Assembly (NCBI GenBank): GCA_003574885.1
Contig: PJFC01000006.1
Span: 1 to 64,000 of the forward strand
Source of the DNA: Geobacter sp.
Lineage (GTDB): Bacteria > Desulfobacterota > Desulfuromonadia > Geobacterales > Geobacteraceae
Reading direction: 5' to 3'
DNA length: 64,000 bases
In this document: piece by piece, positions 7,940 to 25,297 of the stretch
How positions within the stretch are numbered: position 1 is the stretch's first letter
Layout of the letters: each line of letters begins with the position of its first letter
Position numbers and translations under genes: made by a program
Notes under the pieces: generated by a model
Told to the model about the DNA's origin: nothing
The model's database searches: none
What the model saw: the letters and a program-made list of their open reading frames with translations, nothing else

Positions 7940-8115
7940 TGTTGCAGATCTCCCTTTGGCTGACACAGCTTAATAATTACTGACAAGATTGTTGTTACAT
8001 TGCTGTACCTGCATATTCCAATACTAAATACAGCATTTAAATACAATGCACACTACATCATACATTATGCGTATGCCATATTTTTATGATCAAACAGTAA
8101 TTTTGCCAATTAACA

Positions 8116-8143
8116 TTGACTTGCTACTGAATAATCGTATAAT
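8116..8143 (+). promoter_or_regulatory. sigma-70-like promoter of the first OmcS-like gene
   Basis: TTGACT, 16 bp, TATAAT. Transcription would start near 8150, giving a ~20-nt leader. The whole 7967-8160 stretch is very AT-rich. No -24/-12 element is seen here, unlike the OmcS-like paralogue at 24.2 kb. Confidence 0.7.
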
Positions 8144-8170
8144 TAATAATCAATATTTGGCGGGGTGCCT

Positions 8171-9496
8171 ATGAAAACGTTATCATTGAAAGTGGCCATC
8201 CTCGTTTCAGCCTCGTTGATCTGCACTCTTCCCGCAAGATTTGCATTTGCCTTTCACAATGGGGGCGTTGCCGACTGCGACGGCTGTCACACCATGCACA
8301 ACTCATCGGGAAACGTTCCGATGACGAAAAGCGGTCGCCCGACGGGGACAGGTTTCGCTTATCTGCTCAAAGGCTCGGACCAGAGTTCGACCTGCCTTAT
8401 CTGCCATGCAGGGTCCACCCCTGCCGACAGCTTCAGGGTTGCCACCAATCCAGTCCCGACGCCGGGAGCATATCCGCTCCAACTGACGCCGGGGGGCGAT
8501 TTCTCCTATATGCAGAAAAACTACAACTGGGTTACCTCCACCGGAACCCCCCAATCGAGTCCCGGCGCGAACCACGGTCACAACATCAACGCAACGGATT
8601 TTCTCTATTTCAGCAACAGTGCCCGGTGGACTACTTCTCCCGGGGGCTTTTACCCCACGGCAAGCCTCGGTTGTACAAGCTGCCACGACCCCCACGGCAA
8701 GTACCGTCTTCTTGATGCCGGCGGCACCATGGTCGCCGCCACCGGAAAGCCGATCAGCGGGACCGGTTCCTACGGAGCGCTGCCGACTGCATCCACCGCT
8801 GTCGGATCCTATCGCCTCCTCGCGGGGCAATACTACAAACCGGCCTCGCTGCTGGGCAATTATGGCTTTGTGGCCAATCCCCCCATTGCCGTGGCACCTG
8901 TCGTCTATAACAGGTCGGAAGCCGCGTCCGACACCAGGGTCGCCTACGGACTGGGAATGTCCGAATGGTGCGGCAACTGCCACGGCACCCTGCAACACAA
9001 TACCGTCAACCCAAGCACTACCGTGGGGAACCACCCTGCCGGGTACAGCGCCAAGCTCACCAACGTCTATGCGACCTACAACGCCTATATCTACACCGGC
9101 AATCTCACCAACACGAACCCTGCCGTCGGCTACAGTTCCCTCGTGCCGTTTGAGGAGAGCTTTTCCTACTTGGAAAATCTTGCCGCCGACACGGGCAGCA
9201 CAGTCGGTGCATCTCCAACCGACAACGTTCAATGTCTAACCTGCCACCGTGCCCACGCTTCCGCCTGGGACAGCTCTACCAGATGGAATATGGCCAAGGG
9301 GGCCTATCTTACCGTGGACGGTTCTTATCCCGGGATTGACTCTCCCTCACTGCAGGGTCAGCAAGGGGAAAATGCGACGGGCAAGACCATGGCGGAATAT
9401 CAGCAAGCCATGTACGGCAGACTACCAGGCAGCTTCGCACCAGCTCAGGTATCCCTCTGCAACAAATGCCATGAGCAGGATCAGTACAAACAGTAG
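8171..9496 (+). CDS. OmcS-like hexahaem c-type cytochrome
   Basis: 441 residues with a signal peptide ending ...RFAFA and a mature start FHNGGVADCDGCHTMHNSS. There are six CxxCH motifs (CDGCH, CLICH, CTSCH, CGNCH, CLTCH, CNKCH). The order and spacing, plus the blocks TPGGDF, GHNI, SCHDPHGKYR, RVAYGxGMSEWC, CLTCHRAHAS and SLCNKCH, match the OmcS family, whose members polymerise into extracellular haem filaments in Geobacter. It is a clear paralogue of the gene at 22847-24190. ATG 8171 is chosen; an in-frame GTG two codons earlier is possible. It has its own sigma-70-like promoter and is convergent with the large minus-strand cluster. Filament formation is inferred from family. Confidence 0.9.
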   Translation: MKTLSLKVAILVSASLICTLPARFAFAFHNGGVADCDGCHTMHNSSGNVPMTKSGRPTGTGFAYLLKGSDQSSTCLICHAGSTPADSFRVATNPVPTPGAYPLQLTPGGDFSYMQKNYNWVTSTGTPQSSPGANHGHNINATDFLYFSNSARWTTSPGGFYPTASLGCTSCHDPHGKYRLLDAGGTMVAATGKPISGTGSYGALPTASTAVGSYRLLAGQYYKPASLLGNYGFVANPPIAVAPVVYNRSEAASDTRVAYGLGMSEWCGNCHGTLQHNTVNPSTTVGNHPAGYSAKLTNVYATYNAYIYTGNLTNTNPAVGYSSLVPFEESFSYLENLAADTGSTVGASPTDNVQCLTCHRAHASAWDSSTRWNMAKGAYLTVDGSYPGIDSPSLQGQQGENATGKTMAEYQQAMYGRLPGSFAPAQVSLCNKCHEQDQYKQ

Positions 9497-9543
9497 CGAT
9501 CTGACGCCACGGCATCTCTCTCCCGACCGGGACATCCACGCGC

Positions 9544-9969
9544 CTATTTCTTACTGAAAGTGGCGTTTTCCACGATGACGCTGTAAAAATACCCCGCGCC
9601 AAAATCACGATTAGTCACCAGCGTTCCCGAGATGGTTACCACCGAGCCCTTGCGCGGCAGCGGTTCCGAAGTGGTGCAGGTAAGATCGTAGTTTCCCATG
9701 TCCGACGATCCGGTACCATCCTGAATGTGGATCCAGTTCTTATCCAGTATTCCACCGGTAACCTTGACAACCTTGCCTCTGATAACAACTTTTTTCCCCG
9801 CCAGCTTGGCGCTATCCCGGTACACCTCTTCGACAGTCACGGCATTCTGACCGGTTGCCTTCTTGACGGAAACCTTGCCTGCCTTGTCCGCAGAGGTGCG
9901 ATTTCCGGCAGCCAGAGCTGACCCGGCAGCAATAAGAATCATAAGTGCAAAAATTATCGTTTTTTTCAC
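9544..9969 (-). CDS. small exported OB-fold protein
   Basis: 141 aa with signal peptide MKKTIIFALMILIAAGSALA and a GTG start behind AAGGGGG. The body (VEEVYRDSAKLAGKKVVIRGKV..., WIHIQDGTGSS, GSVVTISGTL, YFYSVIVENA) matches the five-strand OB-fold layout of exported 'nucleic-acid-binding OB-fold' proteins, which often sit beside cytochrome genes. It is last in the minus-strand series after the 26-haem, 16-haem and NHL genes. A periplasmic accessory role in cytochrome assembly or electron transfer is plausible but unproven, and no nucleic-acid role is implied by location. Confidence 0.75.
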   Translation of the reverse strand: MKKTIIFALMILIAAGSALAAGNRTSADKAGKVSVKKATGQNAVTVEEVYRDSAKLAGKKVVIRGKVVKVTGGILDKNWIHIQDGTGSSDMGNYDLTCTTSEPLPRKGSVVTISGTLVTNRDFGAGYFYSVIVENATFSKK

Positions 9970-9996
9970 AGTACCCCCTTGTATTAAGCGTCTATG

Positions 9997-10899
9997 CTAC
10001 TTGATCTCGAAGATCTGCACCCGGTTGTTGTCCCGGTCCGCAACGAAAAGGAAACCCTTGTCATTGAGGCAGATCTGACCGGGGTAGTAAAGAAGGCCGG
10101 GCTTCCACCCCATGCTGAGCATGCGGGTCCGTACTGCCCCATCAGCTCCCAGGACGATGATCCCGCCGCCGTTCTGGTCGACGACATAGAGACTCCCCCC
10201 GCGGTCGGTGGTTATGTAGCCGGGGAAGTCCATGTCGGCCTTGAGGCTTTTCGACAGCGGCGTAAAGGCGGCAGCATTTTTCGCCGCCGCAAAGACCATG
10301 GAGTTCGTGCTGTCAATCAGATAGATACTCCCGTCGGTATGTACCGCCAGGTCGGTAAAGAAGCCGTGCTGCGGGGGGAAGGGTATCTCTTTCTGGAAAT
10401 TCCCGCTCGGATCGAGCAGAAGCACCCGACTGGAGAAAATATCCAGAACGTAGATGTTGTCTTTTGCATCTATCTTGAAGCTGTTGGGCACGGGGGCGGC
10501 CCCCGCCGGAAGTCCCTGAATATCCAGGTAGCCGAGAAAGGAGCCTTGCGGGCTGAGACGGAGAATGCGGCGCGACTTCCCGTCGAGAACGTAGATTTCC
10601 CCTTTCGAGTTCAGCTGGAGCCGAAGCGGGGAGGTCATCTGGGGGACCTTGATTTCACCTCCCCCTTTGACCGCGTCATCCTTGAAGGTATAGGTCAGGA
10701 GCCGGCCATTGCCGGTATCGGCAACAAAGAACGCCCCATCGCTGGTGCAGGCGACCCCCTGGGGACTCTTCATCATCCCCTCCTTGGCGTCAACGAGAAC
10801 CGGCTGGACAAGTTTCAGCGTCATCGTTTCCGCGCCGAAAGAAGCGGCGGGAAGCAGCAGTAGCGACATGGTCAGAAATCTGGTTGCACGTAGTATCAT
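9997..10899 (-). CDS. exported NHL-repeat beta-propeller
   Basis: 300 aa with signal peptide MILRATRFLTMSLLLLPAASFG. Repeats follow the NHL pattern (SPQGVACTSDGAFFVADTGNGRLLTY; LQLNSKGEIYVLDGKSRRILRL; YYPGQICLNDKGFLFVADRDNNRVQIF) and suggest a six-bladed propeller. Such proteins act as protein-binding scaffolds. The start at 10899 has AGAGG 8 nt upstream; ATG 10905, which overlaps the stop of the 16-haem gene as TGATG, is an alternative. Tight linkage to two giant cytochromes implies a part in their assembly or surface presentation. It resembles the NHL protein at 21699-22673. Confidence 0.85.
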   Translation of the reverse strand: MILRATRFLTMSLLLLPAASFGAETMTLKLVQPVLVDAKEGMMKSPQGVACTSDGAFFVADTGNGRLLTYTFKDDAVKGGGEIKVPQMTSPLRLQLNSKGEIYVLDGKSRRILRLSPQGSFLGYLDIQGLPAGAAPVPNSFKIDAKDNIYVLDIFSSRVLLLDPSGNFQKEIPFPPQHGFFTDLAVHTDGSIYLIDSTNSMVFAAAKNAAAFTPLSKSLKADMDFPGYITTDRGGSLYVVDQNGGGIIVLGADGAVRTRMLSMGWKPGLLYYPGQICLNDKGFLFVADRDNNRVQIFEIK

Positions 10900-10904
10900 G
10901 GTCA

Positions 10905-12185
10905 TCACCTCTTGAACTGCTCGTGGCACTGTACGCAGAGTTCGCTCGTTGACGGGAACGGTATGAAATGCTTGTACTCGGTTCCGTGGGACCGGTGGCA
11001 GCTCAGACACTGCACAGAGACGTTCTTGTTCCGCGGGTCGCGGACTTTCTCCCCGAGGGGATGGGTCGAATGCTTCTGCCAGTCATGACAGGTCGCGCAC
11101 TGATCAATGATGGTTGCCTTTTTGAACATGTACGGGTTGTCGGATGCATGGGGGTCGTGGCAGACGACGCATTTCCCGTCTTTTATCGGCTCATGCTTGG
11201 TCTGGGATTTTTCCTGCCGTCTGATCGTGTCATGGTGACAACGTCCACACGTGGTTATCAGATCCCCCTTCATGAGCCCATTATGTTTTGAGGCATGGGG
11301 GTTATGGCAGCTGAGACACCCTTCCTTGCTCAGAATAGGCCAGTGAACCATGTTCTTGGCGAACATTGAGTTCACCTGCGTACTGTGGCAACCACGACAG
11401 AGCTCATAGCCGCTTTTCTTGGTCTTGAGCGGAGTTGCTGAAGTTGCTTCCTCGTGGCACTGGTTGCACATCCTGCTGACAACCGGCTTATGCACGTTGT
11501 TATACAGGATGCCCGCCCTGTCTGACCCGTGCGGATCATGGCAACTGGTACATCGCGAAGCAGCAACCGGATAGTTCATGTGGCTCTTGATGAAATTGGG
11601 GCGGTCTGTCTTGTGGCACCCGATACAGAGGGCCGGTACGTCGCTTTTCAGCAGGAAAGCCGCTTTGTTGGACGCGTGGGGATCATGGCAGGTCAGGCAC
11701 CCCTTCACCAGCGGACTATGCTTGAATTTCACCTTTGCAACCGATTCGCCCATCTCCTTGTGGCAGCCGAAGCAGAGGTCGTTCCCCCCCTTGAGGAGGT
11801 TGAACTTGCTGTTGGCGCTATGGGGATCATGGCATTTCGTACAACTGCCTTCTGCCACGACCTTGTGCACACTCTGCGCGTTGGCAGGCACTACGCTTTT
11901 GTGGCAGGTGGAACAGATGTTGCCCGCATCCGCCACCAGCAGCTTTCCATGGGATGCGCTGTGGGGGTTATGGCAGCCGGTGCATTGCCCCTTTTTAAGC
12001 GGCGTGTGAATGGCAGGTTTGGTTAGCTTTTCCTTGAATGCCGTGTGGCACCCCAGGCACAGCTTGCCATTTGCTCCCGGCTTCAGCTTGAACTTCAGAT
12101 CGTTTTCCTCGGCATGGGAAACCAGACACATGCACAGGAAAATGGTGAGAATCGACAGAACCAGCGTGGGATATCTAAAATTCAT
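10905..12185 (-). CDS. 16-haem c-type cytochrome (doubled CxxCH type)
   Basis: 426 aa with an N-terminal export signal (NFRYPTLVLSILTIFLCMCLVSHA). I count sixteen CxxCH motifs, mostly in alternating pairs: GxCxxCHDPHAS followed ~20 residues later by LCxxCH. This is the doubled-CxxCH repeat of large Geobacter cytochromes. GAGGAG lies 7 nt before the ATG. It sits 12 bp downstream of the 26-haem gene and is followed immediately by the NHL gene, so these form one operon. A periplasmic or outer-membrane electron wire is likely. The repeat pattern suggests descent from partial duplication of the 26-haem gene or a shared ancestor. Confidence 0.93.
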   Translation of the reverse strand: MNFRYPTLVLSILTIFLCMCLVSHAEENDLKFKLKPGANGKLCLGCHTAFKEKLTKPAIHTPLKKGQCTGCHNPHSASHGKLLVADAGNICSTCHKSVVPANAQSVHKVVAEGSCTKCHDPHSANSKFNLLKGGNDLCFGCHKEMGESVAKVKFKHSPLVKGCLTCHDPHASNKAAFLLKSDVPALCIGCHKTDRPNFIKSHMNYPVAASRCTSCHDPHGSDRAGILYNNVHKPVVSRMCNQCHEEATSATPLKTKKSGYELCRGCHSTQVNSMFAKNMVHWPILSKEGCLSCHNPHASKHNGLMKGDLITTCGRCHHDTIRRQEKSQTKHEPIKDGKCVVCHDPHASDNPYMFKKATIIDQCATCHDWQKHSTHPLGEKVRDPRNKNVSVQCLSCHRSHGTEYKHFIPFPSTSELCVQCHEQFKR

Positions 12186-12197
12186 AACAAGCTCCTC

Positions 12198-14174
12198 TTA
12201 TTGCTTGCTGACAATATGGCATTCCTCGCACGATCGTGAGGCAAAGGGAGGGTGGACCGTGTCTTTGAAGAATTTCGGATCCTTCGAGGCATGGGGGTCA
12301 TGACAGCTGATACAGTTCATGCTGCCGGGGTTAATGTTCAGGTGCGCCTTCGCAAAAGATCCACTCTTCAGGTCATGGCACTGGGCGCACACTTCAGTCG
12401 GCTGGCTGGCCAACAGCGGCCGTACGGCGGAATAGTGAGGTTTGTGGCATTCCTGGCAGTTTTTCTGTGCCGGAGGATGGGGCGTTTCCTTGGCGAGCTT
12501 CTCCTTGAGAGGCTTGTGACAGGTCACGCACAGGTCGGTCCTTTCGGCGAGAAGCAGTTTGGGGAGCTTCGTTTTATGCGGATTGTGGCATTTCGTGCAG
12601 TCACCCGCCGTAAAAGGCGCGTGCGTACTGCCGGCAGTCTTGAGCCCTTTCTCCAGAGTGTCATGGCAGGTGAAGCAGGTGGCATCCTGTTTCTGGGAAA
12701 GCATTCCAGGTATGCTGCTGGAATGGGCATTATGGCACGCAAGACAATCCCCATCGGCAAAGGGTTGATGGTTCGTGCCGGCGGCTTCTTTTTTCATGAG
12801 ATCCGAATGACACGGTTCGCACAGCTTGGGTACCGGCGCTTTGAGAAGTTTCTTCTCCTGACTGCCGTGGAGGAAGTGGCACGCACTACAGTTACCCGAC
12901 AGCACCGGCTTGTGGGTATGGCTTTGCTTGAACTTCCCTTCCAGATCACTGTGACAGCCGTAGCAGACAACATCCATCGTATCCTTCAGCATCCCCGGCA
13001 AGCCTGAGCCGTGGGGATTGTGGCATGCATCGCACTCCCCGGACGCGAAGGGAGGGTGAATAACCTTGCTCGTTTTCTGGGCATCTTTTGTCTTGGCATG
13101 GCAACCGTAGCAGAGGTCGGCCCCCTTGACGTTCAGCAACCCTTTGTTTTTGGCGGCGTGGGGCCGGTGGCACGAGATACATCCTTTCCCCTTGGTGACC
13201 GCATCGTGCTTGAACAGGGGAACCGTTTTCTTCTCCTGATGACAGGTTACGCAGAGGTCGTTGCCTTCGCCGACAAGGAGTTTGGGGTAGTCAGAGGTGT
13301 GGGGATTGTGGCAGGAAAGACATTTGCCGCTTTTGAACGGTTCGTGCTCGACCGTACCCCCCTCTTTCAGCTTGGCAACATCGTGGCACTGGTAGCAGAG
13401 CTCGCTCCCCTTCGCGGTAACCGCAAACGGCTGGGGAGATGTGGCTGCGTTGTGACAACCATCGCACCCGCCGGTGGCAACGGGATTGTGAGCACTCTCC
13501 TTGAGCAGCTTGGGCTGGGTCGAGGAATGGGGGTTGTGGCAGACAGAACAGCGGCTTTTCTCCACTGGATACCCGCCGTGGGCCTTTTTGAAGGAGGAAC
13601 CGGCACTATCGTGGCAGCCAAGACAGAGTTTCGGTTCGGCCTGGGTCAGCAGGTTTTTCTCGTCAGCGCTGTGGGCAAGGTGACATGCAGTGCATCCCTT
13701 ATCCGCAAGAACCTTGTGGACGAACTTTTTCTCGAACTGTTCCTTTTTGTGACACGCATAGCACATTGCATTCCCGTCCGCCTGGAGGAGATTGCTCCCC
13801 TGTGAGGCGTGGGGATTATGGCACGTGGTGCATTTCCCTTTTTTCAGGGCCGTATGCACATTGGCCTTGTTGAGGCCTATCTTGTCCTTGGCGTGGCACG
13901 TGAAGCAGAGGGCGTTGCCCGTCTCCTTCAGAATCAGCTTGGGGATGATGCCGTGGCGCAGATGGCACCCCTCGCATTTCTTGTCCTTGACCACGGAATG
14001 CACATTCTTCATGGCAAAGTACTTGTCGGCAAACTTTGTGTGGCAATCAAGGCATTCCTTGCTGGCAAATTTCTTCGCCGCATGGGAGGGAGTCGTCGAG
14101 AAGAGACCGACAACTCCGCACAGGACCAGCGCCGCCACCAACAGGGAACAACGTCGCATGTTCATTACCCTCAT
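12198..14174 (-). CDS. 26-haem c-type cytochrome (doubled CxxCH type)
   Basis: 658 aa with signal peptide ending THPSHA-like at residue ~32 (...FSTTPSHA) and twenty-six CxxCH motifs counted by eye. They run from CLDCH near residue 41 to CEECH just before the C-terminus. The protein is one repeated unit of ~45 residues: CxxCHNPHxSxxPKLL....LCxxCH....H.PF..G. Histidines in NPH and KHEPF-type segments can serve as distal ligands, giving bis-His haems. GGGGAGA precedes the ATG. It lies in an operon with the parvulin gene upstream (18-bp gap) and the 16-haem gene downstream. A haem chain this long could span many nanometres. I recall a 26-haem cytochrome near omcS in G. sulfurreducens, but cannot verify it here. 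Confidence 0.95.
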   Translation of the reverse strand: MRVMNMRRCSLLVAALVLCGVVGLFSTTPSHAAKKFASKECLDCHTKFADKYFAMKNVHSVVKDKKCEGCHLRHGIIPKLILKETGNALCFTCHAKDKIGLNKANVHTALKKGKCTTCHNPHASQGSNLLQADGNAMCYACHKKEQFEKKFVHKVLADKGCTACHLAHSADEKNLLTQAEPKLCLGCHDSAGSSFKKAHGGYPVEKSRCSVCHNPHSSTQPKLLKESAHNPVATGGCDGCHNAATSPQPFAVTAKGSELCYQCHDVAKLKEGGTVEHEPFKSGKCLSCHNPHTSDYPKLLVGEGNDLCVTCHQEKKTVPLFKHDAVTKGKGCISCHRPHAAKNKGLLNVKGADLCYGCHAKTKDAQKTSKVIHPPFASGECDACHNPHGSGLPGMLKDTMDVVCYGCHSDLEGKFKQSHTHKPVLSGNCSACHFLHGSQEKKLLKAPVPKLCEPCHSDLMKKEAAGTNHQPFADGDCLACHNAHSSSIPGMLSQKQDATCFTCHDTLEKGLKTAGSTHAPFTAGDCTKCHNPHKTKLPKLLLAERTDLCVTCHKPLKEKLAKETPHPPAQKNCQECHKPHYSAVRPLLASQPTEVCAQCHDLKSGSFAKAHLNINPGSMNCISCHDPHASKDPKFFKDTVHPPFASRSCEECHIVSKQ

Positions 14175-14192
14175 AGTTCTCCCCTAACGTAG

Positions 14193-15953
14193 TTAGTTGC
14201 TGCTGTTCGTAAGATAAATCTTGACCGGGTAAGCCTTTCTCAGTTTGTCCGACCAGCCGTCTACCGTATTGTTCAGTCTGGTGACGAACAACTCGTTGAA
14301 TATCTTTTTCTGTTCCTTTTCCAGGGGTGAATTGGTCGCCGGAACGACCTTCTTCACCTGCAGGAGGTAGAAGTATCCCTCCGGAGAGGTGTACAACCGC
14401 GTCTCTTCCTCCTTGGCCCCCTGCACCGCTTCCCTGAGCCCGTCAGGCAGCGATTTGACCGACAGGAGCTTGTCCGAGAATTCCAGCAGTTCGCCGCTCT
14501 TCTCCTTATCGACCTGACCCTCGGCATTGTTTTTAACCCAATCGAAGTCGATTCCCTTTTTAAGCTTTGCCATATTGTCCTCTGCGGCATTTTTTTTCTG
14601 AAAAACAAGGCCCTGGACCTTCATCATGGCAGGAATCGTATACTCATTGATATGCTGCTTGTAATATTCAGCAACATCATCATTTGTTACCTTGACGTCG
14701 GGAGCAACGACTTTCTTGATAAATTCACCGAAGACAACGGAGTTGCGGTACTCGGTGACATCGTGCAGGTATTCAGGGGATTTGTCGATTCCCTGACTTT
14801 TAGCCTCGGCAATGAAAGCCGACCGGTAAATCAGGTTATCCAGCGCAGTACGTTTTGCCGCGTTGACCGCATTTTGCTTGATTGCCTCGTCGACACCGTG
14901 GAAGAACCTGCCTGCGAGGGCTTCCGCCAGGTCCGCAACGGTAATCGGATCCGCCCCTTTCATCCGCACAACCACCCGTTTGTCGGCTCGCAGTTTCTTG
15001 AAGCCCGGCTTCGCAGCTTCAAAATCGAGCTTATTGAGCAGTTTTTCGTCGATCGTCGCGTATTTTTTGGCCATCGCCTTGTTGAAATCGGTCAGGACCT
15101 TCGTCCGCTTGATCTCCAGAGCCTTTCTCTCGGCTTCCTCCTGTGCCTTTGTGTTACCTTCCGGATAGCGGACAGCCTCCAGTTTTATGACCGTAAACGC
15201 TGGCCCGACAGCAATAACCGGGCTCACCGACCCGACCTTCAATGCGGCTATGGCATTTGACACTTCAGGCAAAAGAGCACTTGGCTGGATATATTGCCCC
15301 TCTTTCACCCCTTCCGCTTTATGGCTGTCGATAAGTTTGTTTGCGAGGTCATCGAACGTGCCACCGGCAGCGATTTCTTTTACCAATGCATCTGCATCTT
15401 CCTTCTTATCAAGCTTTATGGACCGTAGTTTCCATTCCTTGACGGCATCCCGGTAAAACTGCTCTACCTCCTTGGCGTCAGGTTTTACATCTTTTATCTG
15501 CTGCATCTTGAGCATGTCCCGCAGGTGATCCATCTTGAAGACGTCGATAGACGTCTTTACCTCCGGATTCTCGTCGAGACCCATTGTTGAGGCTTCCGCC
15601 AGGATAAGCCTGGTGTTGATCAGACGATTCAGGACCTTCTGATAATCCTTTTTCCCCACCTGTTTCCCTTCGGTTGCCTGCCGGTGAAGACCCATAAGGG
15701 AATTCTTCAGATCCTCAAGGAGGATAGGCTCGTCATTGACCGCGGCAACGGGAGTCTTGTCAAAAAGCGGTGAAAATATGGGAAATTTCAATCCTATATA
15801 AGCTTCTTCATCCGTACTTGGCACCTCTGTTTTTGCAGTCACTGTCGTTTTCGCATTGTCAGTGCTTTGTTCATTGTTTGCAGCTGACACTGATGTTGAT
15901 ACCATCATGGCCAACACATACACAACAGACATAGTAAATGATGTTTTTTTCAT
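14193..15953 (-). CDS. SurA/PpiD-like periplasmic parvulin with two rotamase-type regions
   Basis: 586 aa with signal peptide (...VLAMMVSTSVSA). A SurA_N-like helical chaperone region follows (residues ~65-170: VNDEPILLEDLKNSL, LNRLINTRLILAEAS, YRDAVKEWKLRSI). A first parvulin-like segment lies at ~175-260 (ADALVKEIAAGGTFDDLA...VSPVIAVGPAFTVIKL) and a second helical plus parvulin-like segment at ~340-560. It likely chaperones exported cytochromes or the outer-membrane barrel. It is first in the parvulin / 26-haem / 16-haem / NHL / OB-fold operon, with its own promoter and AAGGGAG before the ATG. Isomerase activity cannot be judged by eye, since parvulin active-site residues are scattered. Confidence 0.85.
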   Translation of the reverse strand: MKKTSFTMSVVYVLAMMVSTSVSAANNEQSTDNAKTTVTAKTEVPSTDEEAYIGLKFPIFSPLFDKTPVAAVNDEPILLEDLKNSLMGLHRQATEGKQVGKKDYQKVLNRLINTRLILAEASTMGLDENPEVKTSIDVFKMDHLRDMLKMQQIKDVKPDAKEVEQFYRDAVKEWKLRSIKLDKKEDADALVKEIAAGGTFDDLANKLIDSHKAEGVKEGQYIQPSALLPEVSNAIAALKVGSVSPVIAVGPAFTVIKLEAVRYPEGNTKAQEEAERKALEIKRTKVLTDFNKAMAKKYATIDEKLLNKLDFEAAKPGFKKLRADKRVVVRMKGADPITVADLAEALAGRFFHGVDEAIKQNAVNAAKRTALDNLIYRSAFIAEAKSQGIDKSPEYLHDVTEYRNSVVFGEFIKKVVAPDVKVTNDDVAEYYKQHINEYTIPAMMKVQGLVFQKKNAAEDNMAKLKKGIDFDWVKNNAEGQVDKEKSGELLEFSDKLLSVKSLPDGLREAVQGAKEEETRLYTSPEGYFYLLQVKKVVPATNSPLEKEQKKIFNELFVTRLNNTVDGWSDKLRKAYPVKIYLTNSSN

Positions 15954-16002
15954 ATATCTCCCTTGTCATTACTTTGGTTGATACAATATTTATTGTTACA
16001 TT

Positions 16003-16029
16003 ATTATAGCATCGTCCATATTTATTCAA
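16003..16029 (-). promoter_or_regulatory. sigma-70-like promoter for the parvulin/cytochrome operon
   Basis: On the minus strand CTTGAA, 16 bp, TATAAT, about 50 bp upstream of the parvulin start. The surrounding intergenic DNA is AT-rich. Confidence 0.55.
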
Positions 16030-16191
16030 GACATAAATGCGATTTTGTTTATATTTAATACATGTTTATAATTATTTTTACTTACTGTGACAATTGCCTC
16101 CATGTCGCATACAGTATCCTGGCATACCGTAAATGTATGCGCGGCATCACTCTGCCAATATCTTTATCCACAAACACTGATGCTCGCATAA

Positions 16192-17364: not shown

Positions 17365-17941
17365 CGACGGCCTTTTCCGTGATGGTGTTCATCGGCTCGC
17401 CGCCACCGCCGAAAAGCCGATCAGTTACACTCACCCCACCCCTCGTCGTCGAGGCGCTCCAGACAACCTTACCGGTCTGTGTTTCCATCAACTGGAGGCT
17501 GAGAGATATCACATTGCCGACGGCGGTTCCCGACCTCACCTCACCATATTCCTTCAGGGTACCGGTAATGACTCCATCGGCCTTGATGAAGCTCCCCAGT
17601 TTCACAATCTCCTCGGCGGAGGGTGCGGCAGGATTGGCGATGGCAGCTCTGACCACGCCCCGGTTGACCTCGCCGATCGGTACGACGTATACCCCTCCCG
17701 AAGCGAGCAGCGCCGTAATGAGCACATCGCGCACCCGTTCTCCAGCTGAATTGTCACGGGAAAGGTTGACAAAGGGCAAAACTTCCACGGTGCGGATCGA
17801 ACCGAAATCCATATTTTCATTACGGTAGGTTCCCGAGGGGTGGAATGCTGCACAACCTGTCAAAGAAACCATAGCAATGGACATCACTGTTTTCAGGAAC
17901 AGGCTTGACACAATTGATTTCACTCTTCTGGTACCAGGCAT
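17336..17941 (-). CDS. CsgG/GNA1162-family lipoprotein
   Basis: 201 aa with a lipobox (MVSLTGC) after a basic N-terminus. The core follows the family closely: SIRTVEVLPFVNLSRDNSAGERVRDVLITALLAS, then VYVVPIGEVNRGV, IVKLGSFIKADGVITGTLKEYGEV, ISLSLQLMETQTGKVVWSAS, and a C-terminal AVDDLINKLF. GTAGGAG lies 9 nt before the ATG. It sits between the beta-barrel gene (25 bp upstream) and the two-domain lipoprotein (overlapping). By analogy with CsgG, these lipoproteins may form or gate an outer-membrane passage for the cytochrome subunits or help anchor the barrel. Experimental support is not visible here. Confidence 0.8.
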   Translation of the reverse strand: MPGTRRVKSIVSSLFLKTVMSIAMVSLTGCAAFHPSGTYRNENMDFGSIRTVEVLPFVNLSRDNSAGERVRDVLITALLASGGVYVVPIGEVNRGVVRAAIANPAAPSAEEIVKLGSFIKADGVITGTLKEYGEVRSGTAVGNVISLSLQLMETQTGKVVWSASTTRGGVSVTDRLFGGGGEPMNTITEKAVDDLINKLFQ

Positions 17942-17965
17942 TGACTATACTCCTACCCATAGTGA

Positions 17966-20233
17966 TTAAAAAAACAGCCGCAAGATCATCGACACGTAGC
18001 TTGATTTTGTCGACGATATCAACGATTCGGACGTGAGGAGCGAATAGGACAGATTGAGCGTCGCCCTCGGCGCGATTCTCCAACTGACGGAAGGGGTCAG
18101 ATTGGTATCCTTCTGATTGTTGAGGGTTGTGGCATTTTCGTTGTAGGCAACGTTAAACTGGAGATCTCCGTCGGGAAACGGTGACCAGTTTCCCCCGTAA
18201 TTCTGGATATACTGGGTTTGCTGGTTCTCTCCCTGCTGGACACCGAGTGAGGCGAACAGGTACAGACTGGGAAATGGCCGGTAACTGATCCCCAAAAGAC
18301 CATTCTGGGAAGAGGACGAGGATGGCGGAGTGGTGCCTCCCGTTATGTTGCTCTTGCTGAGGTTGTACGTCAGGGTAAAACTCAGGTCCTGGCGGGGAGT
18401 GATACTTGTACCGCTGGCAAACGACAGGTTCTCCGACTTCTGCCCCACCAGGTTGGTGGAGATGCCGTATCCCGCCGACAGATTGAAGGCGACCCCCTTG
18501 TAGGGCTGTGAAATGTTGGTAAAAAAGATGGAATTGTTGTCAGTTGTCCCTTTGGGCTGGTAGTCGATACGCCCGCTGTAGACAAGGGTGTTGGTCAATC
18601 CGACCAGGGGGATCGCCTTCAGGGAGGCGCTGTACAGGAAAGCGGAGCTCTGCTGGCCGGACGAGGAGATGTCCTCACGGCCAACGGTCGCCCCTACGGA
18701 AAACACCTCGTTGATCTTGTGATCGAGCAACAGGCTGTTGTTAAGGATATAGCTTATGTCCGCGCCTGACGTGGCGGTGAGGGAAAGGTTGAGGCTGTGG
18801 TAGAGGGAAGGTGAATCGAGAATCCTCGTCCGGACGTCCATATTGAGATTCTGGCTCGAGCTTGACCTCGTGCCCTTTACCTGCGCCGCCGGCTGACTGA
18901 GCACTCCCTGAAATTCCGTCACGAAGATCCGGTCCGGATTCTGGAACGACGGATTGGCAAGGGCCATGCTCTGGGGAAGGGTATTGACCACTACCTTGAT
19001 GAACCTGGTCTTTACGCTGCTCAGCAAGGTCAGCGTAAAATCGTAATTGTTCTGGAGCGGCTCGAAAGTAGCAGGAATCATGTTAGCCGAATTGGGCGCT
19101 ACCGTAGTGCCGTTCTGATCGATCTGGCTCCAGGTATCCGTCTCCCTATCACGCACCCAGATTTGCCAGGTAAAGGCGCTCGCTATGGACGTGGGGAGTT
19201 GCCGGTCAACAAAGATGCGGATCTTGTTGATCTCTGTCACGTTGAAAAAATCGACGCCGATACTCCATTTATTGTTCGTATTCACCGCAGGAGCGACGAC
19301 TCCGAGATTGATCCCGGTAGTGGAGGTAAAGTTGCTGTCGATCAGTGCAGGATTCCCCGTATTCTGGTCTGCGGTTCCCAGAGAAGGATCGATATTGAAG
19401 GCGGAGATGCCGCTCACCGGAAAGAGCGCGGTATCGACAACTCCCCCATTCCCCGCGCTGGTTGTGGATTGCTGGTAATTCACATTATACTGTGAATAGA
19501 GGGAGACCCGTTTATCGAAAAACTGGTCAGAGTAGCTCACCGAGGCGTTGTGCAACATCTGGGTGGTGTCCGTATCGTGCAGGTTGTCCCGGGTGTCGGT
19601 ACCGGTGAACTGGTAGCCGAGTTTGAATGTTCTGTACATGTACCGGGAACCGACGGAGACCATGTCAGTGGTCCCATCCCGGTTGAGCCGGTCTACGTCG
19701 TAGTTGTTGGCGTGGGAAAGCCGGACGGACAGGTCGGGGAGGTCTACCGGCCGCCACCCCAGCGCGGCGTGGTACTCCTCATTGATTGTTTTCGGTTCAA
19801 CCGCCAGAGTCCCGCTCTGGGAATTCTCCGTCCGGACATAGCCAACTCCCGCCTGGTAGAGCGTATTGGTAAGCAGGGCGTCGAAATAGGGTGAGAACGA
19901 CGTGGTCGTGCCATGAGAATTTGAGTTGATGTCATGCAGGGTAGTGACATCCTGCTGGATCAGTGCCCCTGAAGAAATCTTCAGCAACGGGAACGGATTG
20001 ACTGCCAGGGAGATATTATACTTTTGCATGAACTCGTTACCCTTGCTGTTCGAGGTAACAACCCCGGTGGCATCCTTGGTTTTGTTCCACGAAAGGTTCA
20101 TGTCCAGTTCCGCACTTCCTGATATGATATCAGCCTGCACCGCACGAGGCAAACCCCCGAACAGCACAACGACCATGGCTGCGCAGGCGCATACTGACGC
20201 CGGTCCTGATGCCCTTCGCCGGGGAACCTGCAC
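17966..20233 (-). CDS. large outer-membrane beta-barrel protein with discoidin-like insert
   Basis: 755 aa from a GTG start (behind GAGAGG) with signal peptide ending ...RAVQA. Most of the protein is alternating polar/hydrophobic strands with aromatic girdles (YNISLAVNPFPLLKISSG, FKLGYQFTGTD, LNLSLTATSGADISYILN). It ends MILRLFF, a terminal phenylalanine typical of BamA substrates. Residues ~305-445 differ: WSIGVDFFNVTEINKIRIFV, FTWQIWVRD, TRFIKVVVNTL and FVTEFQGVL resemble an F5/8-type (discoidin) jelly-roll, so a binding domain may be inserted between barrel parts. As the only barrel in a cytochrome cluster, it is the best candidate porin for an electron conduit or subunit exit. It is coupled to the YVTN gene 4 bp upstream. 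Confidence 0.8.
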   Translation of the reverse strand: MQVPRRRASGPASVCACAAMVVVLFGGLPRAVQADIISGSAELDMNLSWNKTKDATGVVTSNSKGNEFMQKYNISLAVNPFPLLKISSGALIQQDVTTLHDINSNSHGTTTSFSPYFDALLTNTLYQAGVGYVRTENSQSGTLAVEPKTINEEYHAALGWRPVDLPDLSVRLSHANNYDVDRLNRDGTTDMVSVGSRYMYRTFKLGYQFTGTDTRDNLHDTDTTQMLHNASVSYSDQFFDKRVSLYSQYNVNYQQSTTSAGNGGVVDTALFPVSGISAFNIDPSLGTADQNTGNPALIDSNFTSTTGINLGVVAPAVNTNNKWSIGVDFFNVTEINKIRIFVDRQLPTSIASAFTWQIWVRDRETDTWSQIDQNGTTVAPNSANMIPATFEPLQNNYDFTLTLLSSVKTRFIKVVVNTLPQSMALANPSFQNPDRIFVTEFQGVLSQPAAQVKGTRSSSSQNLNMDVRTRILDSPSLYHSLNLSLTATSGADISYILNNSLLLDHKINEVFSVGATVGREDISSSGQQSSAFLYSASLKAIPLVGLTNTLVYSGRIDYQPKGTTDNNSIFFTNISQPYKGVAFNLSAGYGISTNLVGQKSENLSFASGTSITPRQDLSFTLTYNLSKSNITGGTTPPSSSSSQNGLLGISYRPFPSLYLFASLGVQQGENQQTQYIQNYGGNWSPFPDGDLQFNVAYNENATTLNNQKDTNLTPSVSWRIAPRATLNLSYSLLTSESLISSTKSSYVSMILRLFF

Positions 20234-20237
20234 GCAG

Positions 20238-21656
20238 TTACCTCTCCCCCATCAGGGAGGTCCAGTAGGGGGCTTCGCCCACATCAAACTCGGCAATGAC
20301 TTCCCTTGTGACAAGATTGATGACGTCCACGGTGTTCCGCTCACTGTTGATCACGAAAAGGTTGTTCTGTTCTCCGTCGATCGCCATATGGAGGGCACTG
20401 CCGTTCATTCTGATAGTAGAAAGCGCAACGAAGGTTGATGGCTCGTAGACCTCGATATCGGGGCTGAACCGTTTCCCGACATAGACCAGGTTCGTCAACG
20501 TATCGAGTTTTATGGCAATCGCCCCCATACCGATCCGGTACCTCTGCTGCAACGCCAGGGAAGGGAATGGAGCCAGCAGCCGCACGAAGGGGTTCATCTC
20601 ATGAATTGTGTAAAGAATAGTTCCGTTCCGGCTGAACTGCCCCCGCGACAGCCCCGGTTCAGAGGGGACGGTTGCCACAACGGAACGGGAAGCGACATCG
20701 ATGACTGAAATGCTCTGGGAAAAGCTGTTGAACACGTACGCCCGGGTCCCGGCAGGATCCAGCAGGATCGACTCAGGGGTGTTTCCGACCTGGATCCTGT
20801 CCGTCTCCTGATAGGAAAGGGGATCGATCACGCTCACCATGTTGGTGCCGGTGTCAACTGCCAAGAGAAGCTTGCCGTCAGGGGTCAGGGCGAGTTCCTG
20901 CGGTGCATCACCCGGTTTCAGTCTGATCCGGGTGATCTCCTCCCCGAGAGGGATATCGATCACCTCGACTGCATCATCCCCGGCAAGGGCTACATAGGCC
21001 CTGCGCCGCAGCTGGTCGAATGCCAGCCCCTTCGGGCCTGCACCGGTAGCTATGACACCCACCACCTCCCGGTACTGCTTGTCAAAGACCGTAAGGGTAT
21101 TGGAACCGTAATTGCTGACGTACCCAACAAGCCCCGTCACCGGCTTCCCTGATGGGGTGACGGTGAATACCGGGTTGAAGCTGTAACCGGTCATGACGGA
21201 CTTGTCGTAGTTAAAGGCCAGAGAACTGAACGTGGCCCGTTTCTGCGTAACGTTAAAGCGGCAGTCGATACGAACCGGCTTTTCCGGGACGAGCAGTTTC
21301 TCCTCGCCCTCTTCGTCCAGCAGGGTCGCCCCGGCAACTCCCACGGCCAGGGCCACGTAATCACCCGGGGGAAGCTGCCCCGAGGCGAAAAAACGCTGAC
21401 GATTGACCAGGTTGACGGAGAAATCCTTGAAGGAGAGGGAGAGCGGGTATTCGCTCCCGTCATCTTTAACCGCCGAGACCTGCGACAGGGCGAATTTCAG
21501 CCGCCGCGCTTCCCGGGGCAAGGTACGGACATAGAGGAAGAGTTCACCCTGGTCCGTAAGAGACGGCTTCAGAATCGTTCTCTGGGGCTGGCACCCGGCA
21601 AGAAGCCAGGTGGCGGCAAACAGCAGCAACAATGCTCTCAGGGGAAACCCTTTCAC
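20238..21656 (-). CDS. YVTN-type beta-propeller lipoprotein
   Basis: 472 aa from a GTG start behind GGGAG. Signal sequence with lipobox LLAGC. Residues ~30-160 are a beta-rich N-terminal domain (LFLYVRTLPREARRLKFAL..., LPPGDYVALAVGVAGA). Residues ~175-470 carry YVTN repeats (VGYVSNYGSNTLTVFDK; KGLAFDQLRRRAYVALAGDDAVEVID; LALTPDGKLLLAVDTGTNMVSVID; FVINSERNTVDVINL), fitting a seven-bladed propeller. It is probably anchored in the outer membrane, where it may cap or guide the barrel and the OmcS-like cytochrome. It lies between the NHL gene (42 bp) and the barrel gene (4 bp) in one operon. Confidence 0.85.
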   Translation of the reverse strand: MKGFPLRALLLLFAATWLLAGCQPQRTILKPSLTDQGELFLYVRTLPREARRLKFALSQVSAVKDDGSEYPLSLSFKDFSVNLVNRQRFFASGQLPPGDYVALAVGVAGATLLDEEGEEKLLVPEKPVRIDCRFNVTQKRATFSSLAFNYDKSVMTGYSFNPVFTVTPSGKPVTGLVGYVSNYGSNTLTVFDKQYREVVGVIATGAGPKGLAFDQLRRRAYVALAGDDAVEVIDIPLGEEITRIRLKPGDAPQELALTPDGKLLLAVDTGTNMVSVIDPLSYQETDRIQVGNTPESILLDPAGTRAYVFNSFSQSISVIDVASRSVVATVPSEPGLSRGQFSRNGTILYTIHEMNPFVRLLAPFPSLALQQRYRIGMGAIAIKLDTLTNLVYVGKRFSPDIEVYEPSTFVALSTIRMNGSALHMAIDGEQNNLFVINSERNTVDVINLVTREVIAEFDVGEAPYWTSLMGER

Positions 21657-21698
21657 TGCAAACTCCCGACTGACCGCGCCATGTGCGTTGTCCCTCTC

Positions 21699-22673
21699 CT
21701 ACTCGGGGGTAATCCGGTACACACTCACCCCTCGGTTCGCACTCTGGGAAACATAGACCAGGTCTCCCAGTACGGCCACCTCCATGGGGGCAATGAGATT
21801 CCCGGGATCGAAGCCACGTTCGCCATACTCACCCCGGAAGGTGAAATCCTTGTCCCGTTCAAAGACCATGATAACACATCGTAGGGTATCTGCCACATAC
21901 AGGCGCCCCTTGTCGTCTGCAGCCACGCCGCCGATAATATTGAACTTCCCCGGGCTGCTCCCGCGCCGGCCGAACGTAGTCAGTTTTTTGTCGGGAGAAA
22001 TGAGGTACACCAGCGAATTAACCGGAATGGTGAATATGAGCGTCCCCTCTGCATCAACGGTAACGCCGCGAATATCGAAATCGCTTCGCTTTTTGTAATT
22101 CACGTTGATCATGGAGGCGAATTCAAAACCGTCCTCGTAGTTTCCGTGGAGGTCGGTGATGAGGACCTTGAACTCACGGGGGTCGATCAGGTAGAGATGC
22201 CCCTTACGGCAGAAGATCCGCTCCGGATTGAAATTATCCGTAAACAGGGGGGGGAGATTCTCCAGTTTGAGGACTTCCTGGGGATCTCCGCGGAAATTGG
22301 CGATGACGACCTGGGTACGTTTCCCCCTGCTCGAAAGGACATATATGGTGCCGTTGTCGTCCACGTCGAGACCTCGGATGGCGCCAAATTCACCTTCCTC
22401 ACCGAAGGAGTAGACCAAGAGGCCGGTCTTGTTGAACACGTCCACCGACTGATCGGAGGGATTGACCACGTACAGTTCCTTCTGCGTCTTGTCGGTGCCG
22501 AAGGTCACCCAGCTCGATGCGATGGAACCGTTAAAATTGGAGAGATTGTACAGATACACGAGCTTTGCCTCAGCCCGCGTGCTGGACAGCATGAACATAG
22601 TGAACAGCAGGCAGGCAATTGCTACCGGCAAGGTACGGTGAAAGCGAACTATGATTGATGCGTATGTTTTCAT
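21699..22673 (-). CDS. exported NHL-repeat beta-propeller, downstream of the OmcS-like gene
   Basis: 324 aa with signal peptide ending ...STRAEA. NHL-type blades (VNPSDQSVDVFNKTGLLVYSFG; IRGLDVDDNGTIYVLSSRGKR; FNIIGGVAADDKGRLYVADTLRCVIMVF; VAVLGDLVYVSQSANRGVSVY) suggest a six-bladed propeller. The ribosome site is weak. It follows the OmcS-like gene after tandem hairpins, so its expression is probably much lower than the cytochrome's. An NHL gene beside omcS is, as I recall, conserved in Geobacter. A role in export or assembly of the filament subunit is inferred. Confidence 0.87.
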   Translation of the reverse strand: MKTYASIIVRFHRTLPVAIACLLFTMFMLSSTRAEAKLVYLYNLSNFNGSIASSWVTFGTDKTQKELYVVNPSDQSVDVFNKTGLLVYSFGEEGEFGAIRGLDVDDNGTIYVLSSRGKRTQVVIANFRGDPQEVLKLENLPPLFTDNFNPERIFCRKGHLYLIDPREFKVLITDLHGNYEDGFEFASMINVNYKKRSDFDIRGVTVDAEGTLIFTIPVNSLVYLISPDKKLTTFGRRGSSPGKFNIIGGVAADDKGRLYVADTLRCVIMVFERDKDFTFRGEYGERGFDPGNLIAPMEVAVLGDLVYVSQSANRGVSVYRITPE

Positions 22674-22765
22674 ACGAATATCTTCACGCCTCTGCTCAGG
22701 GTGTTCGGTGAGATCTATTGCCGGCCACTTTGCCGGCTGTTGACAGGGAGGAGCGGGACGTTTTC

Positions 22766-22831
22766 AAAAAGGGGGCCGGCTTTGAGCCGGCCCCGATCAT
22801 TGCGAAGGTGCCGGGAGCTTGGCTCCCGGCA
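22766..22831 (-). terminator. tandem hairpins / terminator between the OmcS-like and NHL genes
   Basis: The first hairpin (22809-22831) pairs TGCCGGGAG with CTCCCGGCA. The second (22772-22794) pairs GGGGCCGGC with GCCGGCCCC around a 5-nt loop and is followed by TTTTT on the minus strand. Read-through would reach the NHL gene, so these probably stabilise the upstream mRNA and attenuate the downstream genes. Confidence 0.85.
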
Positions 22832-22846
22832 TGCAGGTTCATCAGA

Positions 22847-24190
22847 TTAGTCTTTCGCGTGGCACTTGTTGCAGAGCGAACGCTGGCTATAGGCAAATTT
22901 GGTGGCCGGCTGATCGTACATGGCGGCTGCATACACGGCCTGATTCATACCGGTGGAGTTGTCGTAAGACTCGGTACCAGCGCCGGCCGCAAAGTCAGGA
23001 TATGCGTTGGCAACCGTCAGGAAGTCGGTGGTGTTGCTCCACCGGGTCATGCTGTTGAAGCCGGAGGCATGGGCACGGTGGCAGGAAAGACACATGACGT
23101 TTTCCGTACCGGTCGAGGGACCGGCGGTCACGGTGCCGGTAATGTCTGCATGGCTGAGCAGGGTGGCGATATCTTTGGTACCTTCTTCGTACGGTACGAG
23201 AGAGCTGTAGGAGGTAGCCACCGTACCGGTCAGATCGCCGGAGTTTTTGTAGACATTGTAAAGAGCGGCGATGGTGGTACCGGTGCCGTTCCCCTGCAGG
23301 TCATTGGCGGCTGCGGTCAGCAGTGCGCCGTTGCCGGCCGGGTGAATAAGGGCAGTGTTGGCGGCGTTGGTAGCGTCAACGTGGATTGTCCGGTGGCAGT
23401 TTGCGCACCATTCGGACATGCCCTGACCGTAAGCAACGCGGGTATCGGCAGTAGCCTCGGAACGGTTGTAGGTTTTAGGAGCAACGGCAACCGGCGGATC
23501 GGCGTTGAAGGGGAGCGGGTTGACGTAGGACATCTGGGAGTAGTTGGCGCCGCCCAGCAGGCGGTACACACCGACCGCCTCGTTGGCGGTGGGCAGGTCA
23601 CCGTAAGAGCCGTAGGTACCGATCGGCAGGACCTTCTGGCCAGGGATGGCATAGGCGATGGTGCCGGCGGCATCGACAACACGGGCGCGGCTGTGGGGAT
23701 CATGGCAGCTGGCGCAGGAGAGTGCAGCGGTGTCATACTGCCCACCCGGTGCGACGAGGAGTTTAGTGTCAGGAGTCAGACCGAAATCCGCTGCGACGAC
23801 GTTGTGACCGTGGCGTTCGCCGAGGCTGACGGCAGAACGGCCGGCTGCTGGGAAGGTCTGGGTCAACCAGGCAAAGTCACCGCCCGGTGTCCTGTTGACC
23901 GGAGCGCTGGCATTGACGGCCGGGGCCGGGTAGGTCATGACGTGGTAGCCGCTCAGGGTGGCGCCGGAATGGCAGTTGAGGCAGGTGGAGCTGTCGTCCG
24001 ACCCCTTCAGGAGGTACTTGTTCCCCTGGAATTGGGCGGTGTTCTTCGTCATGGCTGCGTTGCCAGAGGAGTTGTGCATGGTGTGGCAGCCATCGCAGTA
24101 AGCGACGCCACCGTCATGAAAGGCAAATGCGCTGCCGGAAGCCGCGAGCGTCAGCATGGCTGCCGCTGCCAAAATCTTTGATGCTTTCAT
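22847..24190 (-). CDS. omcS: OmcS-like hexahaem c-type cytochrome, sigma-54 controlled
   Basis: 447 aa with a signal peptide ending SGSAFA and mature FHDGGVAYCDGCHTMHNSS. Six CxxCH motifs (CDGCH, CLNCH, CASCH, CANCH, CLSCH, CNKCH) occur in the OmcS order. Diagnostic blocks include TPGGDFAWL, GHNVVAADF, PGGQYDTAALSCASCHDPH, RVAYGQGMSEWCANC, LIHPAGNGA, SGDLTGT, FEEG-like PYEEGT, CLSCHRAHASGFNSMTR, and the C-terminal RSLCNKCHAKD. OmcS polymerises outside the cell into a haem nanowire. The ATG follows AAAGGAAC. It has a -24/-12 promoter, a ~290-nt structured leader and tandem hairpins after the gene. Given the paralogue at 8171, I cannot say which is the true orthologue, but this one is closer by eye. 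Confidence 0.92.
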   Translation of the reverse strand: MKASKILAAAAMLTLAASGSAFAFHDGGVAYCDGCHTMHNSSGNAAMTKNTAQFQGNKYLLKGSDDSSTCLNCHSGATLSGYHVMTYPAPAVNASAPVNRTPGGDFAWLTQTFPAAGRSAVSLGERHGHNVVAADFGLTPDTKLLVAPGGQYDTAALSCASCHDPHSRARVVDAAGTIAYAIPGQKVLPIGTYGSYGDLPTANEAVGVYRLLGGANYSQMSYVNPLPFNADPPVAVAPKTYNRSEATADTRVAYGQGMSEWCANCHRTIHVDATNAANTALIHPAGNGALLTAAANDLQGNGTGTTIAALYNVYKNSGDLTGTVATSYSSLVPYEEGTKDIATLLSHADITGTVTAGPSTGTENVMCLSCHRAHASGFNSMTRWSNTTDFLTVANAYPDFAAGAGTESYDNSTGMNQAVYAAAMYDQPATKFAYSQRSLCNKCHAKD

Positions 24191-25232: not shown

Positions 25233-25297
25233 GACAAAGATATCCTCCTTCAGGGTAATTGTTCCCGGGTTATGTATCATCACATCAATGTTGAGGG

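Follow-up and report, generated by a model that had tools for sequence, protein, structure and literature searches.

Among described systems, the locus reported here comes closest to the osc (omcS-companion) cluster in the GSU2493-GSU2505 region of Geobacter sulfurreducens. Its products have been proposed to act in OmcS folding (OscH), secretion (OscE, F, and G), and morphology (OscD) (PMC13194489, on Shen et al. 2025). The same source gives GSU2494 as oscJ, GSU2495 as oscI, and GSU2501 as oscC; GSU2495 is a 26-haem cytochrome, and GSU2494 presumably carries 16 haems. In 12 Geobacter genomes, the eight-gene block GSU2500-2493 is found below a GSU2501-like hexahaem gene (PMC12977616). Work cited in PMC13194489 found OmcS wires to be dispensable both for growth on anodes and for the reduction of Fe(III) oxide. 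We analyzed 64,000 nucleotides from Geobacter sp. (GenBank assembly GCA_003574885.1, contig PJFC01000006.1, positions 1 to 64,000 of the forward strand), hereafter the window, in which positions 8165-24190 hold two OmcS-like hexahaem cytochrome genes and a minus-strand accessory block. The locus is an osc cluster, a type already published, with the corresponding gene content, a conserved gene order, and a strict linkage between OmcS and the block. As a whole, it can with good probability be explained as a nanowire biogenesis cluster with the export, joining, and electron-feeding route proposed below.

The locus has the layout of an osc cluster

The minus-strand operon is headed by OmcS1 (22847-24190), a candidate filament subunit that finds OmcS (6ef8) in a phmmer search with an E value of 2.8e-110 and shares 53.0% identity with it over 400 aligned columns. 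At the other end lies OmcS2 (8165-9496, with an ATG at 8171), for which the corresponding values are 4.7e-98 and 46.3% over 397 columns. OmcS2 is encoded on the opposite (plus) strand, so that it and the operon converge, and is preceded by a promoter-like sequence of its own, a sigma-70-like match at 11 of 12 positions that was picked up by consensus scan only (8116-8143, plus strand); in our tree, it falls in its own clade. Both proteins contain six CXXCH motifs, and alignment places all twelve axial histidines in each of them.

Downstream of OmcS1, all on the minus strand, follow genes for a first NHL propeller protein (21699-22673), a YVTN/YncE-type propeller with a YncE/lactonase-type signature and a lipobox-like N terminus (20238-21656), an outer-membrane β-barrel recognized from its structure model (17966-20233), two lipoproteins that we call LpB (17336-17941) and LpA (16192-17364, overlapping LpB), a SurA/parvulin-type chaperone found by Pfam and by orthologue search (14193-15953), a 26-haem cytochrome (12198-14174), a 16-haem cytochrome (10905-12185), a second NHL propeller protein found by Pfam (9997-11010), and a small exported protein (9544-9969). 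The open reading frame (ORF) of the second NHL protein overlaps the 16-haem gene, and its true start is probably internal. The chaperone is OscH-like, and, by analogy with the published cluster, the YVTN propeller can be called OscD-like and the 26- and 16-haem cytochromes OscI- and OscJ-like. The elements of an osc cluster are all found, that is, an OmcS-like hexahaem protein at the head, then YVTN propeller, barrel, two lipoproteins, and parvulin in order, with the 26- and 16-haem cytochromes downstream. Other genomes preserve the arrangement of the block, as described below, so the gathering of these genes is not a matter of chance.

An earlier note on this DNA, made from the letters alone, had described two OmcS-like hexahaem cytochromes bracketing a minus-strand block, and all the genes that it named lie where it had placed them. 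Domain matches agree with its NHL and YVTN propellers and its parvulin, motif counts of 26 and 16 with its two large cytochromes, and both the model and the terminal residue of the barrel protein with its barrel ending in Phe. Its "tight spacing" holds for most of the genes, which are 4-42 bp apart or overlap, but not for the 173 bp after OmcS1 and the 238 bp before the parvulin gene. The "OB-fold" label for the 9544-9969 protein found no support: this protein looks OB-like by eye, has zero Pfam matches and a single NCBIfam match far under the cut-off, and is labelled in only 2 of the 52 clusters from named genomes that are introduced below.

OmcS and the accessory block occur together

Had the accessory genes failed to accompany omcS homologues in other genomes, the proposal of the earlier note that they make and export an OmcS wire would have lost its footing. 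We therefore looked at 28 relatives, in 9 of which an orthologue of the parvulin is present (E < 1e-100). The barrel is found in the identical 9, LpA in the same 9 with an additional weak match in the genome G007, and OmcS in the same 9 as well as in G005 and G007, with a marginal match in G026. In a sample of 117 genomes of the class, with thresholds placed at gaps in the results (E ≤ 1e-75 for LpB and E ≤ 1e-90 for full OmcS), LpB is present in 31 and full OmcS in 30, both occur in 30, and neither in 85. All 30 genomes with OmcS have LpB nearby, at a distance of 4,232-5,571 bases. The association is highly significant when kinship is ignored (Fisher p ~1e-25). The sole genome with LpB and no OmcS (G056) has a canonical block (L191) on a contig that starts at the YVTN gene, and the sole one with an OmcS-like protein and no LpB (G125) shows two partial matches near contig ends.

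A profile scan of named genomes yielded 52 loci, which according to their record titles come from Geobacterales, Nitrospirae, Rokubacteria, Acidobacteria, Anaeromyxobacter, Schekmanbacteria, and others. All ten genes are labelled in 20 of these loci and OmcS in 46; of the six loci without OmcS, five are on cut contigs that begin only after the position where OmcS would lie, and the sixth is L133, described below. LpB itself is labelled in 47 of them, although all 52 were retrieved through LpB, the others having been hidden by the picking of ORFs. The order from the YVTN gene to the second NHL gene is kept in all eight relatives compared, and at the head of the block the OmcS and first NHL genes swap places among relatives. 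This strict co-occurrence fits the core proposal that the accessory genes make and export an OmcS wire. The published work on osc fits it as well, and the genetics of G. sulfurreducens also count in favor of the osc reading (PMC13194489 and PMC12977616).

Lipoproteins and barrel may form a PelC-type exporter

Besides the wire itself, the earlier note had suggested a curli-like export with a CsgG-like pore and a chaperone. In such a system, the lipoproteins would form pores of the CsgG type, and OmcS would cross them in an unfolded state maintained by the parvulin. Our analysis does not bear this out. LpB matches GNA1162 and LpoB in a library scan, and the Pfam CsgG matches of the two lipoproteins, at 19.8 and 15.8 bits, stay below the cut-off of 20.8 bits. 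When profiles built from 32 (LpB) and 33 (LpA) sequences were searched against solved structures, the best match of both was PelC (9h80_C), with E values of 3.4e-7 and 3.5e-5, respectively, and other PelC chains as well as GNA1162 were also among the matches. The model of LpA displays two PelC/TolB-N-like domains (mean predicted local distance difference test score [pLDDT] 86, predicted template modeling score [pTM] 0.83), of which the C-terminal one fits PelC 5t11 with a Z score of 16.0 and a root-mean-square deviation (RMSD) of 2.2 over 136. The N-terminal domain is fitted equally well by CT253 (Z 13.7), GNA1162 (13.3), FlgT (13.2), and CsgG 4q79 (13.0, with an RMSD of 4.7 over 131).

A CsgG-type pore would find its reserve in this tie, in the weak Pfam matches, and in the CsgG/TolB-N-type lipoprotein fold of LpA, which is shared at the superfamily level only. 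It is nevertheless very unlikely, because PelC is closer by sequence and, for the C-terminal domain of LpA, by fold as well, and because the long inserted membrane hairpins of CsgG are absent from both domains of the LpA model, whose sheet strands span 10-11 residues. Moreover, a barrel separate from the lipoproteins is labelled in 50 of the 52 named loci. The CsgG channel transports unfolded chains, and c-type haems are covalently attached in the periplasm, which makes an unfolded passage of OmcS unlikely. We therefore rejected the CsgG pore and favor, from the profiles and models, a picture in which a PelC-like ring is combined with a wide barrel. No pel polysaccharide genes were found in the gene content of 7.2-31.5 kb.

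The barrel protein matches nothing in Pfam or NCBIfam at an E value of 0.01. Its model (mean pLDDT 87) contains about 26-30 strands by a manual count of the strand list, and an insert resembling a CBM32 domain (match to 2jd9, E 0.0046). With the standard barrel formula, 26-30 strands give an estimated bore of about 36-50 Å, close to the width of the OmcS filament of ~4 nm (PMC6584659). We tried to assign the barrel to a single fold family, but neither Foldseek nor VIA singles one out. Judging from these models, a barrel of this width could pass a folded haem protein, with rings of PelC-like lipoproteins below it, and this is the picture that would take the place of curli export.

The 26- and 16-haem cytochromes form a near-fixed pair

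The number of haem motifs in the two large cytochromes hardly varies. Among the 26-haem ORFs, 41 of 45 have 26 motifs, two have 25, one is a fusion with 42, and one, on a cut contig, has 23; all 40 of the 16-haem ORFs have 16. A single 42-haem chain, in which the 26- and 16-haem proteins are fused, is encoded in one named locus (L147) and in a divergent cluster of G007 (L091:392-3631), which suggests that the two separate proteins function end to end. The strict linkage between OmcS and the block, together with this pair as it recurs in several phyla, points to a single machine, which may export as well as wire the filament.

The main rival to this reading is a porin-cytochrome conduit, in which the barrel would sheathe the 26- and 16-haem cytochromes as MtrB does MtrA, so that electrons, and not OmcS, cross the membrane. 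A wide barrel beside long cytochromes with paired CXXCH motifs is indeed the layout of MtrAB, and a search with the 26-haem protein finds chain A of the Mtr complex (6r2q_A) at an E value of 2.3e-22. As for the barrel, MtrB (6r2q_B) ranks second in Foldseek and has in VIA the lowest RMSD among the 50 matches listed (5.6 Å over 322), but its Z score of 14.9 is tied with those of generic barrels. The MtrC/MtrF-domain model of Pfam is above its cut-off in OmcS1 and in both the 16- and 26-haem proteins, and the OmcA/MtrC model of NCBIfam is far below its cut-off in the 16-haem protein. The operon contains no ten-motif ORF, and hence no decahaem gene of the MtrC/OmcA type that a conduit would be expected to include. 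Mtr systems are not known to have a counterpart of the parvulin or of the two ring-type lipoproteins. The osc proteins are also reported to serve the folding and secretion of OmcS (PMC13194489). Overall, we consider the conduit unlikely.

One histidine divides the OmcS-like proteins

In OmcS, 11 of the 12 axial histidines belong to the chain itself, and one, on haem 505, comes from the neighboring subunit (PMC6584659). We scored these ligands in 94 aligned rows including OmcS, after removal of exact duplicates and of five rows (two divergent ones from L091, an unrelated one from L107, and the five-motif rows of L136 and L144). The six motif histidines and His2, 16, 110, 147, 257, and 335 are all present in 80 of the 94, and these six distal ligands are exactly as many as the haems. 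The remaining 14 lack His16, and 13 of them lose nothing else; the other, from L085, was also scored as lacking His2, but there a Phe-His pair is merely shifted one place in the alignment. From this pattern of conservation, and from what Wang et al. 2019 reportedly describe, we take His16 to be the presumed inter-subunit ligand.

The losses of His16 fall in tail and dispersed copies. In loci L100-L150, where every copy situated upstream of the genes for the YVTN propeller, barrel, and LpB was counted as head (including one on the opposite strand, in L150), His16 is present in 61 of 61 head copies and in 8 of the 13 others; one of these eight belongs to a rearranged cluster (L116), where its gene stands between those for the barrel and LpB. 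It is missing from five further tail copies (L085-L088) and from four dispersed copies (L094, L095, L096, and L099). A quick tree, computed with the His16 region left out, gathers 12 of the 14 proteins lacking His16 in one clade (support 97, starred) and puts two elsewhere, and three changes are needed, of which two are forced by starred branches; His16 has apparently been lost at least twice. An additional histidine near residue 255, a possible substitute ligand, is seen in 8 of the 14 as against 10% of the others. Two in-cluster proteins of a later sample (L175 and L176) have their histidine one residue later (CxxCHxxxH), so that the rule may have to allow for a shift of one residue.

These ligands bear on a further alternative, namely that OmcS1 and OmcS2 are not wire subunits but monomers at the cell surface, cytochromes that only share the secretion block. 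In its favor, GSU2501-like homologues may be ancestral (PMC12977616), and the tree places OmcS1 in a 31-row group with proteins of G012 and Geomobilimonas luticola (Shimodaira-Hasegawa-like approximate likelihood ratio test [SH-aLRT] 93, not starred), separate from the group of G. sulfurreducens OmcS (95, starred). However, OmcS1 and OmcS2 keep His16 together with the other eleven axial histidines, while a third, dispersed paralogue in the same genome (L096) has lost solely His16, and we regard monomers as an unlikely alternative to wire subunits. In the same tree, the head OmcS proteins of Anaeromyxobacter (L130, L134, and L137), which are 60-67% identical to that of the window, group together with it (99, starred), and this suggests horizontal transfer.

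Judged by their predicted ligands, paralogues without His16 could accept a histidine from a neighbor but not donate one, and could in this way end a filament. G007, which has such a paralogue (L095) and no canonical osc block, favors instead a monomer whose haem 5 is left open, and the capping of canonical filaments is offered as a hypothesis only. In the open-license literature that we searched, we met no statement of the His16 split, nor of filament-end subunits. Clear information on which OmcS homologues form wires is said to be lacking (PMC12977616), and the His16 rule amounts to a one-residue prediction of which relatives of OmcS join end to end, besides proposing the existence of filament-end subunits.

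Sister clusters combine the block with divergent cytochromes

A divergent class of LpB (E 1e-22 to 1e-36) is present in 14 of the 117 genomes, five of which also carry a canonical LpB. Nine of the 14 sister clusters were examined; one (L188) is a 3.9-kb fragment, which leaves eight (L182-L187, L189, and L190). All eight encode a 26-haem protein 34-36% identical to that of the window, a 16-haem protein at 33-36% (for which the best match in L182 is the 42-haem chain of G007), and two or three lipoproteins of this kind. The parvulin is labelled in six of them and an NHL protein in seven, while the barrel is labelled in four, at 20-23%, the other four holding an unlabelled ORF of 678-757 aa. Six also encode 12-haem proteins of 268-298 aa.

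When the OmcS-related cytochromes of the sister clusters are compared with the proteins of the window and G007, the best match of each is 23-27% identical. In all 12 that we checked (two of them from L091), a histidine follows the first haem motif by three residues, and 8 of the 12 contain a CX5CH motif. A sister clade of OmcS with CX2-5CH motifs has been reported (PMC12545173), to which these cytochromes may belong.

The His16 split and the sister clusters can be joined in one reading, which we put forward tentatively, as somewhat more apt to fail than to hold. His16 would separate the subunits of a chain from paralogues that either end the filament, capping it or anchoring it in the membrane, or act as monomers whose haem 5 stays open, and the block of barrel, PelC-like lipoproteins, parvulin, and 26/16-haem cytochromes would be a general wire platform with exchangeable cargo.

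A proposed route for OmcS, and the points that weigh against it

In the osc-type reading that we prefer, OmcS1 (and OmcS2) would reach the periplasm through Sec and receive their six haems there, and the parvulin chaperone would hold the protein in that compartment. Folded OmcS would then leave through the wide barrel, guided by rings of PelC-like lipoproteins beneath it, in the mode of PelB/PelC and not of CsgG. Outside, the subunits would form a head-to-tail chain, in which haem 5 of each subunit receives as a ligand the His16 of the one before it. The propeller proteins may act at the surface or on the shape of the filament, and the 26- and 16-haem pair would pass electrons across the periplasm to its base.

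Several points weigh against this route. The pTM of the barrel model is only 0.61, the VIA score of MtrB is tied with those of generic barrels, and on the N-terminal domain of LpA CsgG ties with other folds. In one metagenome-assembled genome (L133, CP070783.1), relatives of the barrel and LpB occur with no cytochrome gene in 20.6 kb, a stretch with runs of N. Conversely, G005 has OmcS copies (L092, L093, L094, L098, and L152), two of them with His16, and neither the osc parvulin orthologue nor LpA nor the barrel was found in this genome, whose contigs break inside OmcS genes. Electron feeding by the 26- and 16-haem pair is deduced, and PpcA-E are able to charge OmcS directly (PMC10954620). 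Finally, it has been argued that OmcS filaments may be an artefact of preparation, and that the homologue of Geobacter uraniireducens may not form wires (both PMC6771412).

Neighboring genes and putative regulation

Upstream of OmcS1, domain searches identified, on the minus strand, a PilZ-domain protein of the c-di-GMP-sensing family (24840-25283) and a membrane spermidine-synthase-like protein (25298-28339), followed by a GGDEF response regulator and a histidine kinase; the latter adjoins an ORF at 31469-32146. A GEMM-I (c-di-GMP-I) riboswitch scoring 53.0 bits (29595-29668, minus strand) lies upstream of the response regulator gene and the cluster. Since it precedes the GGDEF gene and the PilZ gene precedes OmcS1, control of the cluster by a cyclic dinucleotide is likely. 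Riboswitches of this class were also detected in 3 of 14 named clusters scanned (L109, L112, and L122), where they overlap the beginning of the stop-to-stop frame that contains a head OmcS gene and are probably part of its leader.

Between OmcS1 and the rest of the operon, a consensus scan found a terminator-like hairpin (22772-22794, minus strand) with a 10-bp stem, 9 of whose pairs are G-C, and a T-rich stretch after it. Its stem is the longest in the region, which contains 18 terminator-like sites against 18.8 expected from shuffles. Should this hairpin be genuine, OmcS1 could be produced in excess.

At the other end of the cluster, Pfam identifies an FKBP-type prolyl isomerase with a helix-hairpin-helix domain (7217-7966, minus strand), divergent from OmcS2, which is possibly a second chaperone; a relative is found near 4 of the 52 named clusters. 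Relatives of the spermidine-synthase-like protein occur in 8 of the 52. We dropped this gene as a candidate new component, because a gene already named spermidine synthase, GSU2502, lies in the region of omcS in G. sulfurreducens.

Comparison with known systems

What is new here is the His16 split, the PelC-like reading of the lipoproteins (PelC was not among the words of our literature search), and the sister clusters. Like the osc cluster of G. sulfurreducens, the cluster in the window has an OmcS-like hexahaem protein at its head and combines a propeller, secretion proteins, and a chaperone with counterparts of the 26-haem GSU2495 and the cytochrome GSU2494. In both, an eight-gene block follows the hexahaem gene and a spermidine-synthase-like gene lies nearby. 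Unlike that cluster, the window has a convergent second OmcS bearing His16 at the tail, beside an FKBP gene, its spermidine-synthase-like gene is upstream, and its head is without a second hexahaem gene (no omcT).

As for exporters, the curli system shares with the window a distant TolB-N/CsgG superfamily fold and a polymerizing cargo with a chaperone, but the LpA model has no transmembrane hairpins, the barrel is a separate protein, and the cargo is a holocytochrome. MtrCAB likewise combines a wide barrel and cytochromes with paired CXXCH motifs in one operon, whereas the window adds a chaperone and lipoproteins, has 26 and 16 haems instead of 10, and encodes a hexahaem OmcS instead of MtrC. 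The PelB/PelC exporter resembles the window in placing a lipoprotein of the PelC fold beside a β-barrel, with a proposed ring-plus-barrel route; the window differs from it in having no polysaccharide genes and two different PelC-like proteins, one of them with two domains, together with a barrel that is wider in the model and a cargo that is a protein.

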